Below are positions 15,470-22,855 of a DNA stretch of 64,000 nt, piece after piece. Under the pieces are notes generated by a model. It was not told the origin of the DNA and made no database searches. It was given only the letters and a program-made list of their open reading frames with translations. Positions within the stretch are counted from its first letter, which is position 1; every line of letters starts with the position of its first letter. The translations under genes were made by a program, and so were the position numbers. Source of the DNA: Ectothiorhodospiraceae bacterium 2226 (GTDB lineage Bacteria > Pseudomonadota > Gammaproteobacteria > GCA-013348725); the NCBI GenBank assembly GCA_013348725.1, contig CP054689.1, forward strand, positions 2,290,501 through 2,354,500, read 5' to 3'.

Positions 15470-15724
15470 GGGCGCGGCCGCGCGCCTGCGGCGCTTGCCT
15501 GCGTCGACGACGCTTCGCGGTCCACGGCGCGCGATCCCTTGTGCGGCAGTTCCATTGCTGTCCCCCCGGTGAACTCTCGTGCGTGCCGCTGCGGCTGCAT
15601 CTTGTGCACGTGCAGAAAACGTAGTTCACACTTTGTGGCCGTGCAACGCGCCGACCGGGCGCCTTGAACTGACGCTAAGGCACTGACAAGCTTGTGGGTA
15701 GCTTCACGGGGCGGGAGGATGCTC

Positions 15725-16261
15725 GTGGTATCCGATAAAGACATGCTTGCGGCCAGCTATCCGATCGCCTTCGTGTGGCGCACCCTGTTGCTGGGCGGTT
15801 TCTGGTGGGCACTGACCGACGGCTCGACCTATGCGTGGTGGCTCGGTGTGGTGGCGGTCGTGACGGTGGCGGGGCTTAGCCTGCTCACGCTTGCGCCCGG
15901 CGATCTGTGGTGGCGGCCGATCAACCTTGGGCGGTTTGTGGTGTACTTCGCGGGGCAGTCTTTGATCGGTGCAGTGGATGTCGCGCGGCGGGCGCTGCAG
16001 CCGCGCATGCCGCTGGACCCCGCGTTCGTGGACTATGAGTTGCGGCTGCGGGCCGCGTTGCCGCGGGCGCTGTTTCTCAACACGCTCAGCCTGACGCCGG
16101 GCACCCTCAGCGCGGAAATCGAGGACGATCGCCTGCGTCTGCATGTGCTGGTGGCCGGACCGCACTACCCGGACTATCTAGCGGCGCTGGAGCGGCGCGT
16201 CGGCGCGGTGTTCGGCGAGAGCTTCCCGGCTGCCTCCGGCAACGCGGGAGCGAGCCGTTGA
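15725..16261 (+). CDS. mnhE: Mrp/Mnh antiporter subunit E
   Basis: Membrane protein of about 179 residues, first gene of an eight-gene Mrp-type operon. Two or three N-terminal hydrophobic segments, then the conserved soluble end (FLNTLSLTPGTLSAEI ... LHVLVAGPHYP), typical of MrpE/MnhE/MbhA. GGGAGG at 15713-15718 is spaced six bases from GTG 15725, so that start is used; ATG 15719 abuts the ribosome site and TTG 15692 would add a leader, so the start is uncertain by a few codons. MrpE is needed for assembly or full activity of the multisubunit complex. Confidence 0.85.
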   Translation: MVSDKDMLAASYPIAFVWRTLLLGGFWWALTDGSTYAWWLGVVAVVTVAGLSLLTLAPGDLWWRPINLGRFVVYFAGQSLIGAVDVARRALQPRMPLDPAFVDYELRLRAALPRALFLNTLSLTPGTLSAEIEDDRLRLHVLVAGPHYPDYLAALERRVGAVFGESFPAASGNAGASR

Positions 16262-16557
16262 ATCTCGTACTGCTGGCGGTGACGGTGTTTCTGCTCCTGA
16301 ACGTGGCGGCCGGTCTGGTGCGGGTCATGCGCGGGCCCACCCCCGCCGACCGCATGATGGCGGCGCAGCTGTTCGGCACCACCGGCGTGGGCGTGCTGGT
16401 GCTGCTTGCCTTCGCGGTGGACCAACCCGCGCTGCTCGACGTCGCACTGGTGTTCGCGCTGCTGGCGGCCCTGGTGGTGGCGGCCTTCGTCCATCAGTGG
16501 GGTGGTCATTATCCCGACGAGCGCGCGCGCAACCTGCGCGGCGAGGAGCGGGAATGA
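16258..16557 (+). CDS. mnhF: Mrp/Mnh antiporter subunit F
   Basis: Small membrane protein of 99 residues with three hydrophobic helices and the MrpF signature VMRGPTPADRMMA after the first helix. It starts with TTG at 16258 in a TTGA overlap with mnhE, with GGGAG a few bases upstream. The short charged tail (PDERARNLRGEERE) carries the ribosome site for the next gene. In the Mrp complex F packs with E and G around the ion path. Confidence 0.9.
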   Translation: MNLVLLAVTVFLLLNVAAGLVRVMRGPTPADRMMAAQLFGTTGVGVLVLLAFAVDQPALLDVALVFALLAALVVAAFVHQWGGHYPDERARNLRGEERE

Positions 16558-16853
16558 TCCTCGACCTCCTGTCGCTGTTGCTGGTGGTGACCGGCGCGCT
16601 GTTCTTTGCCGCAGGCACTGTGGGACTGCTGCGTTTCCCCGATGTCTACACGCGCCTGCACGCCATCACCAAGGCCGACAACGTCGGACTTGGGCTGATG
16701 ATCGTCGGTCTGATGCTGCAGGCGGAAGGCGCCGCCCAGGTGGTCAAGCTGCTGACCATCTGGCTGCTGGTACTGTTCGCTAGCGCGACCGCCTGCCACC
16801 TCATCGCGCGCGCCGCCTTGCGTGAGGGCGTAGCCGCCTGGAGGCGTCGATGA
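16554..16853 (+). CDS. mnhG: Mrp/Mnh antiporter subunit G
   Basis: Membrane protein of 99 residues with three helices and the MrpG motif LLRFPDVYTRLHAITKADNVG (split over residues about 25-45). ATG 16554 in an ATGA overlap with mnhF, preceded by GAGGAG. The in-frame upstream start (16497) lies inside mnhF and is rejected. Ends in an ATGA overlap with the next gene. Confidence 0.93.
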   Translation: MILDLLSLLLVVTGALFFAAGTVGLLRFPDVYTRLHAITKADNVGLGLMIVGLMLQAEGAAQVVKLLTIWLLVLFASATACHLIARAALREGVAAWRRR

Positions 16854-17830
16854 GCATCGTGGCCGCGGTGTTCGACGCCGTGCTTGGGCTTATGTTGATC
16901 TGGCTCGCGTGGCGCCTGCTGCGTAGCGACGACCTGTTCAAGGCGGTGGTGTTGTTCATCGTATTCGGCCTGATGGTGGCGCTGGCGTGGGCGCGTCTCG
17001 GCAGCCCGGATCTGGCCCTCGCCGAGGCGGCCATCGGCGCCGGCCTGACGGGCGTGCTGCTGCTGATTACGCTGGCCACTACCGGCCACAGTGCCTATGC
17101 GACCTTCGATGCGCGGCCCCGCGTACGGCTGGGTTGGGCGGGGCGTTGGACGCGGGGATTGCTGGTGGCGGGCGTGGCCGCCATCCTCGCCACGGCGGTA
17201 TGGAGCATGGCGGAGGACTTCCGCGGGCTCGCGCCGGCAGTGGACCAGCGCATAGCCGAGGCCGGCGCCGCCAATCCGGTCACCGCGGTGCTGCTCAATT
17301 TCCGCTCTTGGGACACGCTGCTTGAGATCGGGGTGCTGCTGCTCGCGCTCACCGCCACCTGGGCGCTTGGCGGCCGGCCGGTGAGCGCGTTTCCGGGTGC
17401 GGTCCGCATGGGCGGCATGTTCACCGTGCTCGCCCGCTTTCTGGTGCCGCTGCTGGTGCTGACCGGGATTTATCTGGTCTGGGCCGGAACCAACCAGCCA
17501 GGCGGGGCCTTCCAAGCCGGGACGCTGATCGGTGCCGCCGGCATCGTGCTGCTGCTGTCCGGCCTGCTCGCGCCGCACCGGGGTCATGCCTTCCCGCTGC
17601 GGGTGCTCCAGGTGTTCGGCCTGCTGGTGTTTCTGTCGGCCGGATTGGCGGGTCTGTTCGGCGGCCATTTCCTCGAGTATCCGGCGGGGCAGGTCGGCGC
17701 GTTTATCCTGGGCGTGGAACTCGCGCTGACCGTATCCATCGCCGTCACGCTGGGTGCGCTGTTCTTCGCGGCCGAGCCCCACGCCGCACGCCCGCTGCCC
17801 GTGCAGGGTCGACAACAGGAGGCGCCGTGA
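16850..17830 (+). CDS. Fused Mrp subunit: MbhD-like + MbhE-like + MnhB
   Basis: A 326-residue membrane protein joining three parts that are separate genes in archaeal Mbh clusters. Residues 1-80 are DUF4040/MbhD-like (PDLALAEAAIGAGL with Glu59), the stretch otherwise found at the C-terminus of MrpA. Residues about 100-175 are MbhE-like (NPVTAVLLNFRSWDTLLEIG). Residues about 190-315 are MnhB (LVPLLVLTGIYLVWAG, QPGGAFQAG). So the MrpA tail is fused to MrpB and not to a NuoL-like head. It overlaps mnhG (ATGA) and mnhC (GTGA). Confidence 0.88.
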   Translation: MSIVAAVFDAVLGLMLIWLAWRLLRSDDLFKAVVLFIVFGLMVALAWARLGSPDLALAEAAIGAGLTGVLLLITLATTGHSAYATFDARPRVRLGWAGRWTRGLLVAGVAAILATAVWSMAEDFRGLAPAVDQRIAEAGAANPVTAVLLNFRSWDTLLEIGVLLLALTATWALGGRPVSAFPGAVRMGGMFTVLARFLVPLLVLTGIYLVWAGTNQPGGAFQAGTLIGAAGIVLLLSGLLAPHRGHAFPLRVLQVFGLLVFLSAGLAGLFGGHFLEYPAGQVGAFILGVELALTVSIAVTLGALFFAAEPHAARPLPVQGRQQEAP

Positions 17831-18168
17831 CGCAGGGGGTGTGGTTCATGCTGGTGGGGGTGGCGCTGTTCAGCCTTGGGCTGCACGGCTTGCTCGCCAA
17901 GGCGCACCTGTTGCACAAGGTGCTGGGCTTGAACGTGATGGCCAGCGGCACCTTTATGGTGTTCATCGGCGCCGGCGCACGGGTGCCGGGGGTGGCGCCG
18001 GACCCGGTCCCGCAAGCCATGGTACTGACCGGCATCGTGGTGGCCGTCTGCACCGCGGCCTACGCGCTGGCCCTGACGCGGCGTATCCGCGACGTCACCG
18101 GCCGAACCACGCTGCCCGGCGAGCACGACACGCCGCCGCCGCCCCACCGCGCTGCCCGCGACTACTAA
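17827..18168 (+). CDS. mnhC: Mrp/Mnh antiporter subunit C (NuoK-like)
   Basis: Protein of 113 residues with three helices, homologous to NuoK: KVLGLNVMASGTFMVFIG in the middle helix and PQAMVLTGIVVAVCTAAYALAL in the third. GTG start at 17827 in a GTGA overlap with the fused B subunit. The last 25 residues are polar and Pro-rich. Completes the order E-F-G-(D/E/B)-C that precedes the large antiporter-like subunits. Confidence 0.92.
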   Translation: MTQGVWFMLVGVALFSLGLHGLLAKAHLLHKVLGLNVMASGTFMVFIGAGARVPGVAPDPVPQAMVLTGIVVAVCTAAYALALTRRIRDVTGRTTLPGEHDTPPPPHRAARDY

Positions 18169-18172
18169 GCGC

Positions 18173-19636
18173 GTGTCGGCGGCGCTCTTTCTCGCAGGCT
18201 CCTTGGCGCTGCCCCTCGCGGGTGCGGCGCTCGCCTTTGTGGTGGGCCGCGCCATGCCGTACTTCGCCCTCGCGGTGTCCACGCTCGCGCTGGGCAGTGC
18301 CGCGGGCTTGGCGCGGCACGTGGCGCTGGAGGGGGCGCTGCGTTATCCGCTGGGGGGCTGGGGTGCGCCGCTCGGTATCGACCTCTACGTCGACGGGCTC
18401 GCCGCGCTGGCATTGTTGATGACGGGCGTGGTGAACTGGTTCATCGGCCTGTATGCCACCGCCTATTTCGCGGACGACCGGGCCGGCCGCTACTTCTGGC
18501 CGTTGTGGCTGTTCCTGAGCGGCGCGCTCAATGCCCTGTTCGTCTCGGCCGACCTGTTCAATCTCTACGTCACACTGGAGCTCGTGGGGCTCGCGTCGGT
18601 GGCGCTCGCGGCGCTGAGCGGCAAGGGACCGGCGCTGGTCGCCTCCATGCGGTATCTGCTGGTCACCCTGCTGGGTTCGCTGCTGTACCTGATGGCGGTG
18701 GCGCTGTTGTATGCCGCCTACGGTGCGCTCGACATCGCCACTGTCGGCGCGCGCCTGCAGAACGAGCCGGTCGCTTGGGTGGCCTTCGCCCTCATCACCG
18801 TCGGCATGTGGCTCAAGATCGCGCTGTTCCCCTTGCACTTCTGGCTACCGCCGGCGCACGCCAATGCGCCGGGGCCGGTCAGCGCGCTGTTGTCCGGGCT
18901 GGTGGTGAAGGCGGGCTTCTACCTGTTGCTGCGGTTTTGGATCATGTTGTTCCCCGACACCTTCGATCCGCGTGCCGGGCACGTGCTCGGCGCGTTCGGT
19001 GTGGCGGCGATCATATGGGGTTCGTTGCACGCACTGCGCCAGCGCCGGCTCAAGTTGCTGGTGGCCTATTCGACCGTCGCACAGATGGGCTACCTGTTCC
19101 TGTTGTTTCCCTTGTCGTTCACGGTGCAGGGGGCCAGTGCCTGGAGCGGTGTGGTGCTCTACATGCTGGCCCATGCCGGGGCCAAGGCCGCCATGTTCAT
19201 GGCCGCCAGCAACCTGCTGCTGGCCTACGGGCATGATCGCATCGACGGCTTGTCCGGCAGCGCGCACATCATGCCGGTGACGCTGTTCGCGTTCGGCCTC
19301 TCGGGCGTGACCCTGATGGGGCTGCCGCCGAGCGGCGGCTTCGTCGCGAAGTGGCTGCTGTTGAGCGCCGCGGTCGAGGCACAGATGTGGTTCTACGTCG
19401 GCGCGATCGTGCTGGGCGGGCTGCTCGCGGCGGCCTACGTGTTCCGCGTGCTGCGCAGCGCCTCGCGCATCGTGCCCTCGACGGCGGCCGGCACCCTGGC
19501 GGTGCGGCGGCTGCCGAGGCGCCTGGAGTGGGCGCCGCTGGTGCTGGCGGCGGTGGCCGCCGCGCTGGGCTTTTACGCGGTGCTGCCATTGGAGTTGCTG
19601 GAAGAGGCCGCCCCGTTTACCGAGGTGGCACCATGA
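18173..19636 (+). CDS. mnhD: Mrp antiporter-like subunit D1 (NuoL/M/N family)
   Basis: Membrane protein of 487 residues with about 14 helices. Key residues of proton-translocating subunits are present: Glu136 in TM5 (LYVTLELVGL), Lys215 in TM7 (GMWLKIALFPLHFWLP), the VVKAGFY lysine of TM8, and Lys in FVAKW of TM12. GTG start at 18173, four bases after mnhC. First of three consecutive subunits of this family; in Mrp complexes MrpD and MrpA each form an ion channel module. Confidence 0.92.
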   Translation: MSAALFLAGSLALPLAGAALAFVVGRAMPYFALAVSTLALGSAAGLARHVALEGALRYPLGGWGAPLGIDLYVDGLAALALLMTGVVNWFIGLYATAYFADDRAGRYFWPLWLFLSGALNALFVSADLFNLYVTLELVGLASVALAALSGKGPALVASMRYLLVTLLGSLLYLMAVALLYAAYGALDIATVGARLQNEPVAWVAFALITVGMWLKIALFPLHFWLPPAHANAPGPVSALLSGLVVKAGFYLLLRFWIMLFPDTFDPRAGHVLGAFGVAAIIWGSLHALRQRRLKLLVAYSTVAQMGYLFLLFPLSFTVQGASAWSGVVLYMLAHAGAKAAMFMAASNLLLAYGHDRIDGLSGSAHIMPVTLFAFGLSGVTLMGLPPSGGFVAKWLLLSAAVEAQMWFYVGAIVLGGLLAAAYVFRVLRSASRIVPSTAAGTLAVRRLPRRLEWAPLVLAAVAAALGFYAVLPLELLEEAAPFTEVAP

Positions 19637-21123
19637 TCGGCTCGGCGCTGCCCTTGCTGGTGGTACTGAGTTCGCTGTTGGCGGGGCTGATCATCTTCAC
19701 CCTGCCGGAAGGGCGCCGCGGCCTGCGCACCGTCATCAACCTCACCGGCGCGCTGAGCAAGCTCGTGCTGATCGGCTTCATGCTCTGGGGCGTGTACCAC
19801 GGCGTAGAGTACGAGTTGCGCTACCCGCTGTTGCCGGGGCTTGACCTGGTGCTGCGCGCCGATCCGCTGGCCCTGCTGTTCGTCACCCTGTCGGCCGGCC
19901 TGTGGCTGCTGACCACCGTTTATGCCATCGCCTATCTGGAGCACGAAGGCTCGGGCAACCGCAGCCGCTTCTTCGGGTTCTTTTCGCTGTGCGTGTCGGC
20001 CACCGTCGGCATCGCCATGGCGGGCAATCCGTTCACCTTCTTCGTGTTCTACGAGATACTCACCTTGGTCACCTATCCGCTGGTGGTCCACCGCGGCACC
20101 GAGGCGGCACTGCGCGCCGGGCGGGTGTACCTCGCCTATACGCTCAGCGGCGGCGTGGTGCTGCTGGTCGGGCTGGTGTGGCTATACGCGCTGGCCGGTC
20201 CGGTGGAATTTGCCGCGGGCGGCGTGCTGGCCGATGCCGGCCTGTCCCATGGCATTCTCGTCGCGCTGTTCGTGCTGTTGATCGGCGGGCTGGGGGTCAA
20301 GTGCGCCCTGTTCCCGCTGCATGGCTGGTTGCCGGTGGCGATGGTCGCGCCGGCGCCGGTGAGTGCCCTGCTGCACGCGGTGGCGGTGGTCAAGGCGGGT
20401 GCCTTCGGCATCGTGCGGGTGGTGTACGAGATCTACGGCGTGGAGTTCGCGCGCGACCTCGGCCTGATGTGGCCGCTCGCGAGCCTGGCGGCCTTCACCA
20501 TCATCTACGCCTCGCTGCGGGCGCTCATGCAGGAAGACCTCAAGCGGCGGCTTGCCTTCTCCACCGTCAGCCAGTTGTCCTACATCGTGCTCGGTGTGGC
20601 CATCGTGGGGCCGCTTGCCACCCTCGGCGGGGTGGTGCATTTGGTGCACCAGGGCGTCATGAAAATCACCCTGTTCTTCTGCGCGGGCAATTACGCCGAG
20701 ACGCTGCATATCCATCGTGTCAGCGAGCTCAACGGGGTGGGGCGGCGCATGCCGTGGACCACTGCGGCCTTCACCGTCGGCGCCCTCGGCATGATGGGTA
20801 TGCCGCCGATAGCGGGTTTCGTGAGCAAGTGGTATCTCGGCCTCGGCGCCCTGGAGAGCGGGCAGGGGCTGTGGATCGCCGTGCTGGCAGGCTCGACGCT
20901 GCTGAACGCCGCCTACTTCCTCCCGCTGCTCTACCGGGCGTGGTTTCTGCCGACCACGGCCGGCTGGGCTGATCCGCGCCCACGCCCGGAGACCGGGCGG
21001 GCCCTGTTGTGGCCGCCGGTGATTACGGCCGCCATCAGCCTTTTGATCGGGCTGTTTGCCGCGGCGGCCTGGAGCCCCTTGGCGTGGACGGCGCTCGCCA
21101 CGCGGGAGCAGTACGCGCCATGA
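19633..21123 (+). CDS. Mrp antiporter-like subunit D2 (NuoL/M/N family)
   Basis: Membrane protein of 496 residues with about 14 helices. TM5 Glu141 (FVFYEILTLV), TM7 Lys223 (GGLGVKCALFPLHGWLP), TM8 VVKAGAFG and TM12 FVSKWY are all retained, so it should be a working antiporter-like module. ATG 19633 in an ATGA overlap with D1; the longer in-frame start (19351) lies inside D1. It lacks the MrpA C-terminal extension, which is provided by the fused subunit at 16850. Confidence 0.92.
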   Translation: MIGSALPLLVVLSSLLAGLIIFTLPEGRRGLRTVINLTGALSKLVLIGFMLWGVYHGVEYELRYPLLPGLDLVLRADPLALLFVTLSAGLWLLTTVYAIAYLEHEGSGNRSRFFGFFSLCVSATVGIAMAGNPFTFFVFYEILTLVTYPLVVHRGTEAALRAGRVYLAYTLSGGVVLLVGLVWLYALAGPVEFAAGGVLADAGLSHGILVALFVLLIGGLGVKCALFPLHGWLPVAMVAPAPVSALLHAVAVVKAGAFGIVRVVYEIYGVEFARDLGLMWPLASLAAFTIIYASLRALMQEDLKRRLAFSTVSQLSYIVLGVAIVGPLATLGGVVHLVHQGVMKITLFFCAGNYAETLHIHRVSELNGVGRRMPWTTAAFTVGALGMMGMPPIAGFVSKWYLGLGALESGQGLWIAVLAGSTLLNAAYFLPLLYRAWFLPTTAGWADPRPRPETGRALLWPPVITAAISLLIGLFAAAAWSPLAWTALATREQYAP

Positions 21124-21136
21124 GGGGGCAAGCGCG

Positions 21137-22855
21137 ATGAGCGCGTTGTGGCTGCTGGCGCTGCTGTTGCCGACCGCAGTGGCGGCGCTGCTGGTGGTGG
21201 CGCCGCTGCGCCCGGTCGTGCTCGCCATGGCGCCGTGGACCATCCCGCCGGTGTTCGGCTTGGCGCTGTATGCCCCGCCGCCCCTGTACCTCGACGATGT
21301 GTTGTTCGGCGTGGTGCTGGGGGTCGATCTCAGCGGCGAGATCCTGCTGCTGCTGGTGGCGCTGCTGTGGTGGCTCGCGGGTCTGCAGGCCCAGGCGACG
21401 CTGGCTCGCGACCCGGCCGCGCCACGCTTCTTTGCCTTTTTTCTGCTCAGCTTCGTTGGCAGCGCGGGGCTCATCATGGCGCAGGACGCGGTGAGTTTTT
21501 ACGCCTTCTTCACCCTGATGAGCTTCGCGGCCTACGGACTGATCCTGCACCGCGGCGATGCGCAGGCGCGCGAGGCGGGGCGCATCTATCTCATTCTCGC
21601 TCTGCTGGGCGAGGCCGTCCTGCTCGCGGGGGTGTTGATGGCGGTCGCGGCGGCGGGCGAGGCCGGCTTTGCGGCCCTGCGGGCGGCGGTTGCCACCGCC
21701 CCCGAGCGCGACCTCATCGTGGCCCTCATCGCGGTCGGTTTCGGTATCAAGGTCGGCGTGATACCGCTGCACGTGTGGCTGCCGCTCGCCCATCCGGCGG
21801 CCCCGGCGCCGGCCAGCGCGGTGCTGAGCGGAACCATCATCAAGGCCGGCCTGCTGGGCTGGCTGCGTTTTCTGCCGATCGGAGAGACCGCACTGCCGGG
21901 CTGGGGCGCGGCCTTCGTCGCCTTCGGTCTGTTGGCCGCGTTCTACGGCGTGGCGGTCGGCCTGGCGCAGCGGGAACTGAAGGTGGTGTTGGCCTACTCG
22001 AGCATCAGCCAAATGGGGTTCGTCACCGTGGGCGTGGGGCTGGCGCTGTTGCACCCGGCGCAGGCCGAGATCATCCTGTGGGCGATCCTCATCTACGCGC
22101 TGCACCACGGCTTCGCCAAGGGTGCCTTGTTCATGGGGGTGAGCGTGATCTCCCCGCTGCCGCGCGCGCGTCTCGCGCGCGTGGCGGTCGTCGCCGGCGT
22201 CGCGCTGGCGGGGCTCGCGCTGGCGGGCGCGCCGCTCACCAGTGGCGCTCTGGCCAAGGCGCTGCTCAAAGCGGCCGTGGCCGACAACCATCTGGACGCC
22301 GTCCTGGCGCTGGCGGCAATGGGGACCACCTTGTTGATGGCGCGCTTCTTGTGGTTGGTGCTGCACAAGCCGCACGGGCAGGCGGCCGCGCCCGGGGTGT
22401 GGGTGCCGTGGTTGGGGACGCTCGCGCTCATGGCGGGCGTGGCGTGGGTCGTGGCGGTCTACGGTCGGGCGCCGCTCGCCGCGCCCGGCCCCCTCGGCGC
22501 CGGGTGGGACGCCCTTTGGCCGGTGTTGGCCGGCATTGTCGTGGCGGCTTTCGGCTGGCGGTTTGGTGGGGGGATTCGATGGCCGGGTGTGCCGCCGGGG
22601 GATCTGCTACGTCCGGCCGAAGCGCTACTCAGGCCATTGGCGTCCGTTTCCTTGGACGTGCCCCGCCGACGCGTGCAGGCCTTCGGTCTCTTGCTTGAGC
22701 GACGGACGCGCGCATTGGTGCTGGGCAACATCGCCCTGGTGGAGCGTCGGCTCAGCCGTTGGCGCACACCGGCAGGCCTGGTGTTGGTGCTGGCCCTGGT
22801 GTTGTGGTGGTCGCTGGGCTACGGCGGCGGCTGGCTGGGTTATTCACCGCACTGA
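21137..22855 (+). CDS. Mrp antiporter-like subunit D3, lacking the TM5 glutamate
   Basis: Membrane protein of 572 residues, the third NuoL/M/N-type subunit of the operon. Lys205 in TM7 (GFGIKVGVIPLHVWLP), the TM8 IIKAGLLG lysine and a lysine in SGALAKALL are present. The TM5 glutamate is not: aligned on the following HRG, position 126 is Thr where D2 has Glu141. It also has an extra C-terminal region (about 480-572) with a helix and an amphipathic stretch ending in a final TM. GGGGG lies eight bases before ATG 21137. Either an altered ion pathway or a structural subunit. Confidence 0.88.
   Translation: MSALWLLALLLPTAVAALLVVAPLRPVVLAMAPWTIPPVFGLALYAPPPLYLDDVLFGVVLGVDLSGEILLLLVALLWWLAGLQAQATLARDPAAPRFFAFFLLSFVGSAGLIMAQDAVSFYAFFTLMSFAAYGLILHRGDAQAREAGRIYLILALLGEAVLLAGVLMAVAAAGEAGFAALRAAVATAPERDLIVALIAVGFGIKVGVIPLHVWLPLAHPAAPAPASAVLSGTIIKAGLLGWLRFLPIGETALPGWGAAFVAFGLLAAFYGVAVGLAQRELKVVLAYSSISQMGFVTVGVGLALLHPAQAEIILWAILIYALHHGFAKGALFMGVSVISPLPRARLARVAVVAGVALAGLALAGAPLTSGALAKALLKAAVADNHLDAVLALAAMGTTLLMARFLWLVLHKPHGQAAAPGVWVPWLGTLALMAGVAWVVAVYGRAPLAAPGPLGAGWDALWPVLAGIVVAAFGWRFGGGIRWPGVPPGDLLRPAEALLRPLASVSLDVPRRRVQAFGLLLERRTRALVLGNIALVERRLSRWRTPAGLVLVLALVLWWSLGYGGGWLGYSPH

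Follow-up and report, generated by a model that had tools for sequence, protein, structure and literature searches.

The operon described here raises the question of whether the third antiporter-like subunit that it encodes can still take part in ion transport, given that it lacks the glutamate found in the fifth transmembrane helix (TM5) of its two neighbors. Known Mrp complexes contain two large antiporter-like subunits, in contrast to the three encoded in this operon, and whether the pair formed by the TM5 glutamate and the TM7 lysine drives, gates, or tunes proton flow is disputed for both complex I and Mrp. A previous sequence-only reading of the window, by which we mean the entire 64,000-nucleotide stretch analyzed, had proposed that this subunit, D3, may be an inert spacer or may use another ion route. 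Based on aligned sequences and on analogy with NuoL and DabB, we find it probable that D3 functions actively in a Mrp-type cation/proton exchanger as its third antiporter-like subunit, with an ion pair between Glu159 of TM6 and Lys205 of TM7 and with altered coupling to D2.

A Pfam profile search of the window identified MrpE, F, G, B, and C together with antiporter-like subunits, as in a Mrp (CPA3) operon, on the + strand in the order E-F-G-B-C-D1-D2-D3:

15692..16261, + strand, MrpE (MNHE), by Pfam match
16258..16557, + strand, MrpF, by Pfam match
16554..16853, + strand, MrpG (PhaG_MnhG), by Pfam match and tblastn of the D3 loci
16850..17830, + strand, MbhD/MbhE-like/MnhB fusion, corresponding to the C-terminal part of MrpA joined to MrpB (PF13244 and PF04039 over cut-off, PF20501 below cut-off)
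17827..18168, + strand, MrpC/NuoK-like subunit (PF00420)
18173..19636, + strand, D1, MrpD-like, with TM5 Glu136, Lys215, Lys246, and Lys393 (Pfam, NCBIfam, residue check)
19633..21123, + strand, D2, antiporter-like, with TM5 Glu141, Lys223, Lys254, and Lys399 (Pfam, residue check)
21137..22855, + strand, D3, third antiporter-like subunit (Proton_antipo_M), 572 aa (ORF, Pfam)

Between E and D3 of this operon, Pfam searches found no MrpA gene in which a NuoL-like part is combined with the MbhD/MbhE-like part. In the source genome, a single contig of 2.96 Mb, PF00361 is matched at twelve places and MrpE at four, and the four Mrp-type gene sets comprise two conventional sets, the set in the window, and another of the D3 type at C1:1733343-1738688 (L076, C1:1727000-1745000), in which D1 and D3 are present but D2 gave no match. 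The conventional sets lie near each other (L085, C1:2484000-2503000).

The D3 reading frame is intact, with 572 codons plus a stop, and its product belongs to the antiporter-like superfamily, scoring 142.4 bits against Proton_antipo_M (PF00361; cut-off 21.5). Among the best 25 of 73 NCBIfam matches none reaches its cut-off, and the highest is to HyfB (167.5 bits vs a cut-off of 667). An AF2 model of D3 is good over residues 1-340 (block means 74-96), and NuoL chains rank first in a structure search with this model (VIA-align; 8e9g_L, Z 40.9, rmsd 2.0, 337 residues aligned). The extra C-terminal region pointed out in the sequence-only reading is real. The model draws three helices there, the first TM15-like (454-476), the second at 511-540, and the third again TM-like (545-561), with pLDDT mostly <50. 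Because most of these residues fall below 50 and the computed moment of helix 511-540 is a modest 0.48, we tentatively read the region as having the NuoL-like order of TM15, lateral helix, and TM16:

22667..22756, + strand, candidate short lateral helix (residues 511-540) between the TM15-like and TM16-like helices, from AF2 at low confidence

A lateral helix close to the C-terminus is known in HycC (PMC9474812), in DabB2 (PMC13144422), and also in MrpA.

The residues of interest were compared across 221 distinct superfamily rows, a count made after removal of identical-core copies, cores <180 aa, and rows gapped at either key position. D3 membership was defined as a score of at least 230 bits against an HMM built from alignment A2, a profile that itself includes both key columns; this assigns 43 rows to D3, leaving 178 others. 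The 43 copies consist of the 31 that made up alignment A2 and 12 from a later phylum search, and D3 is set apart from the rest by the A2 profile scores, which drop from 262 directly to 192 bits. The codons on which the argument turns are the following:

21512..21514, + strand, Thr126 codon at the TM5 Glu position (phmmer, hhalign, codon read-back)
21602..21604, + strand, Leu156 codon at the NuoL Arg175 position (MAFFT, hhalign, codon read-back)
21611..21613, + strand, Glu159 codon in TM6 at the NuoL Asp178 position, acidic in 43/43 D3 copies (MAFFT, hhalign, codon read-back)
21749..21751, + strand, Lys205 codon in TM7, Lys in 43/43 D3 copies (alignment, codon read-back)
21842..21844, + strand, Lys236 codon in TM8 (KAG), Lys in 34/43 D3 copies (alignment, residue check)
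22256..22258, + strand, Lys374 codon in TM12, Lys in 38/43 D3 copies, with 4 gaps and 1 Arg (alignment, codon read-back)

The observation that started this work, that D3 has no TM5 Glu while D1 has Glu136 and D2 has Glu141, is correct. A phmmer alignment of D3 with Pyrococcus MbhH (6cfw_H) sets FFTLMS opposite FLEIMS, with Thr126 on the TM5 Glu, and profile-profile alignment (hhalign) of D3 with 28 NuoL sequences likewise places T126 opposite the NuoL Glu. The codons for F-T126-L, L156-L-G-E159, K205, and K374-A-L-L-K378 were confirmed in the DNA. The HRG motif on which the subunits had originally been aligned is shared after TM5 by D2 and D3, but D1 reads LSG at this site. A residue check also bore out that D3 keeps Lys205 in TM7, the KAG lysine Lys236 in TM8, and lysines in TM12 (Lys374 and Lys378). 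The absence of the TM5 acid extends to the entire family: conservation of Thr126 among orthologs, which had been suggested as a check, shows that the position is never acidic in the 43 distinct D3 copies (22 Ala, 11 Ser, 10 Thr), and Thr126 is therefore neither a chance occurrence nor a local mutation. Two acids considered as substitutes were rejected, as Asp117 aligns with an Asp/Asn cap that precedes TM5 in other families (D in 91 and N in 77 of the 178 non-D3 rows) and Asp64 is incompletely conserved (Asp in 33/43 D3 copies).

An acid is instead found one helix away. In the MAFFT alignment the TM6 motif reads LGE in D3, LGS in D1, and SGG in D2, and NuoL from the same genome reads NRVGD at the site of the D3 LGE. 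The hhalign comparison with 28 NuoL sequences sets E159 on the NuoL Asp and L156 on the NuoL Arg, and TM6 is free of gaps. This Asp can be equated with D178, since the Glu-Arg-Asp spacing in the aligned NuoL (31 and 34 residues after Glu) is that of E. coli E144-R175-D178. K229 and D178 have been designated the NuoL ion pair (PMC9271201), and a double ion pair has been described in which K229-D178 is at 3.3 Å and K229-E144 at 4.8 Å (PMC13324432). At the level of aligned residues, D3 thus retains the inner pair of NuoL and is without both members of the outer pair, TM5 Glu144 and TM6 Arg175. All 43 D3 copies combine the lack of a TM5 acid with an acid in TM6 (E in 38, D in 5) and the lysine in TM7, and position 156 is L/V/I/M/A in 43/43 and Arg in none. 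Column 159 is the sole column within residues 60-340 that is acidic in every D3 copy. The sequence-only reading had suggested looking for a replacement acid nearby and had named another Glu or Asp at the ion site as the finding that would overturn it; judged from the alignment, Glu159 is largely such a residue, given that published NuoL structures put Asp178 3.3 Å from the TM7 Lys. Since the TM6 acid is invariant at the NuoL Asp178 position, the inert spacer is no longer the leading view and finds no support here. The suggestion of another ion route comes closer, in the limited sense that the pair would be TM6-TM7 rather than TM5-TM7.

Among the 178 non-D3 rows, the TM5 acid stands alone in 147, both acids are present in 30 (NuoL), and one row has neither; in 29 of the 30 NuoL rows with both acids, the TM6 Arg is also present. 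Thus 220/221 rows have a TM5 or TM6 carboxylate next to the TM7 lysine. D3 resembles NuoL/ND5/Nqo12 in its TM6 acid at the aligned position, its TM7 Lys, and its modeled NuoL-like fold, but NuoL has the TM5 Glu in 30/30 rows, the Arg in 29/30, and a place in the tree separate from the D3 clade. From the NuoL triad, made up of the TM5 Glu and the Arg and Asp of TM6, D3 has just the TM6 acid. MrpA and MrpD share with D3 the superfamily and the accompanying E, F, G, B, and C subunits, but they carry the TM5 Glu and no TM6 acid. The sole row with neither acid is a NuoN-like subunit (L042:2764-3852, genome G025) with Leu at TM5 and Asn at TM6; its NuoM-like neighbor has Asp at TM5.

Maximum-likelihood trees were built from random subsets of rows with columns 126, 156, and 159 omitted, and are unrooted; four long-branch rows were excluded beforehand from the 65-row tree. 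There is one D3 clade in both trees, with support of 100/100 in the 65-row tree, where NuoL, DabB, and MrpA form a clade (100/97) that D2 joins at 97/88. The D3 clade falls outside NuoL+DabB+MrpA, and D3 does not group with NuoL. In both trees the closest clade to D3 is HyfB, a weak association (SH-aLRT 85; 84/73). These HyfB/HycC-type hydrogenase-4 subunits, which also gave the top, sub-cut-off NCBIfam match, differ from D3 in having the TM5 Glu and no TM6 acid in all HyfB-like rows shown (10 and 7 in the two trees). E. coli HycC is reported to have lost the TM7 Lys instead (PMC9474812). The TM6 acid requires two changes on the 65-row tree, and the AU test rejected a single clade for all 27 TM6-acid rows (lnL difference 32.7, p-AU 0.0107), so the TM6-acid solution most likely arose twice; as the trees lack a root, gain and loss of this acid are indistinguishable. 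Descent of D3 from NuoL or from DabB was also considered, and is unsupported by the unrooted tree and the AU test.

In the mechanism that we favor, the acidic partner of the TM7 lysine has shifted from TM5 to TM6, and Glu159 would pair with Lys205 as Asp178 pairs with Lys229 in NuoL, at a distance that we infer from alignment with NuoL and DabB. With a replacement acid on the next helix, D3 is probably a working channel subunit and not a dead spacer, and proton conduction would be expected along the Lys205-Lys236-Lys374 axis of a subunit presumably placed at the distal end of the complex. In Mrp and complex I, the TM7 lysine and its acidic partner are believed to determine the pKa of the lysine in TM8 and to respond to the TM12 residue of the neighboring subunit (PMC7419157, PMC10212512), and the TM5 Glu of MrpA is reported to lie ~7 Å from the neighbor's TM12 Lys (PMC7419157). 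The missing carboxylate would be expected to alter how the TM12 lysine of D2 communicates with D3; the D2-D3 coupling point is without its usual carboxylate, and transfer between the two subunits should therefore be altered. Gating of D3 would either have passed to Glu159 or have loosened in the direction of an open state like that of DabB. A link has been drawn between how many antiporter-like subunits a complex contains and how many protons it moves (PMC10212512), in which case a third module may raise the ratio.

The earlier assertion that the TM5 Glu is needed for transport is too strong. Isolated Nqo12 E132Q and Nqo13 E123Q are reported to conduct protons faster (PMC11496545), DabB2 has a natural Ile at this position, and cells with MrpA E113Q still extrude Na+; both E113Q and NuoL E144Q had little effect in complementation (PMC4938563), which, as its authors point out, differs from the severe loss reported previously for complex I.

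Variation among D3 copies bears on the active-pair model from both sides. The five copies with a TM6 Asp (L066, L067, L069, L100, and L101) have lost the TM8 Lys but kept the acid and the TM7 Lys, and survival of the pair in their case favors an active role for it. Against this, the TM6 acid may fail to reach the TM12 Lys of the neighbor, and conservation of the Glu-Lys pair could reflect a need in folding alone. The TM8 Lys is absent in nine of the 43 D3 copies, and some copies may therefore not conduct. Four of the five TM6-Asp copies (L067, L069, L100, and L101) have short frames, L066 being longer, and three D3 matches from one genus (L090, L091, and L094, in genomes G427, G525, and G490) contain one or two in-frame stops and are possibly decaying or ending early; these copies, too, speak against an active D3.

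The best-surviving alternative, which we nonetheless regard as unlikely, is that D3 is a permanently open proton conduit like DabB, providing a controlled leak to the rest of the complex without gating by a neighbor, because the pair cannot close in the absence of the TM5 Glu. DabB2 of the DAB2 CO2-hydrating complex resembles D3 in having no TM5 Glu (Ile151) and a TM6 acid/TM7 Lys pair, and its short lateral helix may have a counterpart in D3. In DabB2, Lys235 and Asp185 are kept, and its authors read the combination shared with D3 as an open state; D185A, K235A, and I151E all reduce growth yield, which I151E halves (PMC13144422). In our survey the DabB-type combination of no TM5 acid, a TM6 acid, and a TM7 Lys is present in D3 (T/E/K) and, as I/D/K, in two of the three DabB-like rows whose length allowed these positions to be read. 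These two, L150 and L151, are encoded beside DabA genes and read I/R/D/K when the Arg position is included, which is in line with a DabB-like conduit, as is the faster conduction of the isolated E123Q and E132Q modules. DabB, however, keeps the NuoL-type Arg, has DabA as a partner, and sits with NuoL in the tree, whereas D3 is encoded in a Mrp operon, lacks the Arg in 43/43 copies, and lies outside the DabB/NuoL clade. The source genome has no DabA (no PF10070 match in a profile search), and not every DabB-like protein lacks the TM5 Glu. The exception is L161:3-1343, which is also beside DabA and, unlike L150 and L151, retains Glu in TM5 in addition to Arg and Asp in TM6. Identification of D3 as the DabB of a CO2 system was rejected in view of the missing DabA and the unrelated neighbors of a lone D3 gene in another genome (G052).

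Less probable still is that D3 is a structural spacer or cap in which Glu159 and Lys205 form a buried salt bridge for packing and no ion crosses. The nine copies without the TM8 Lys would fit such a role, as would the short copies (frames of 442 aa in L100 and 441 aa in L101) and the second D3 operon of the source genome, which manages without D2. An active Glu159-Lys205 pair agrees better with the retention of the whole lysine/histidine axis in most D3 copies (K236 in 34, H324 in 38, K328 in 37, and K374 in 38 of 43) and with the TM7 Lys and the relocated acid being among the fully conserved residues. It is very improbable that the TM6 alignment is shifted by a residue or a helical turn, leaving Glu159 away from the NuoL Asp178 position, for although one TM5-TM6 loop residue is gapped (33 residues apart in D3 vs 34 in NuoL), the G-acid motif (LGE/VGD) is ungapped in both MAFFT and hhalign, and no other column of the core is invariantly acidic.

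The gene order of the window is not peculiar to it, as E-F-G-B-C-D1-D2-D3 was found by tblastn in 8/15 D3 loci. Two of these eight, L077 (9193-12179) and L082 (6308-9379), have a tandem D3 pair, which would yield four antiporter-like subunits. Of the other loci, L006 misses only the E match, L080 has B, D1, D2, and D3 only, L076 of the source genome is without D2, three are on short contigs with D2-D3, with E next in two of them, and in L079 the D3 gene has none of the other operon genes beside it. A literature search at the level of titles and abstract openings found no description of a third Mrp antiporter-like subunit or of a TM5-to-TM6 Glu shift in Mrp, which is weak evidence. We put forward as possible, though doubtful, the wider view that D3 is a distinct, undescribed clade belonging to three- and four-module exchangers (D1-D2-D3 and D1-D2-D3-D3), in which the TM6 ion pair was re-invented independently of NuoL and DabB, the proton-to-cation ratio is changed, and self-gated entry replaces neighbor-gated entry. 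D3 constitutes a widespread natural experiment, with no TM5 Glu and with an invariant acid on the adjacent helix. Should the complex prove active, this Glu would not be obligatory for the superfamily, and the rule would become one carboxylate next to the TM7 lysine, whether from TM5 or from TM6. Mrp-type operons with three or four antiporter-like subunits also offer a test of whether subunit number sets proton number.

D3 at >=262 bits occurs in 16/398 genomes of the phylum sample, and its known taxa are Pseudomonadota (kinship labels and named Gammaproteobacteria records), Kiritimatiellae (L001-L003), and Actinomycetota. A copy on a Rubrobacter radiotolerans plasmid (WP_051590046.1, annotated as "complex I subunit 5 family protein"), which tblastn located in a plasmid collection and which belongs to neither the A2 nor the later-search set, reaches 544 bits and has S/E/K at the three positions. 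The genes for MrpE, F, G, and an MbhD protein come before it, and two further antiporter-like genes come after it. The lone D3 of genome G052 (L079:6059-7900) has neighbors that appear unrelated by eye in the ORF list, and further antiporter-like genes are located ~34 kb from it, at C1:1402367-1404741.
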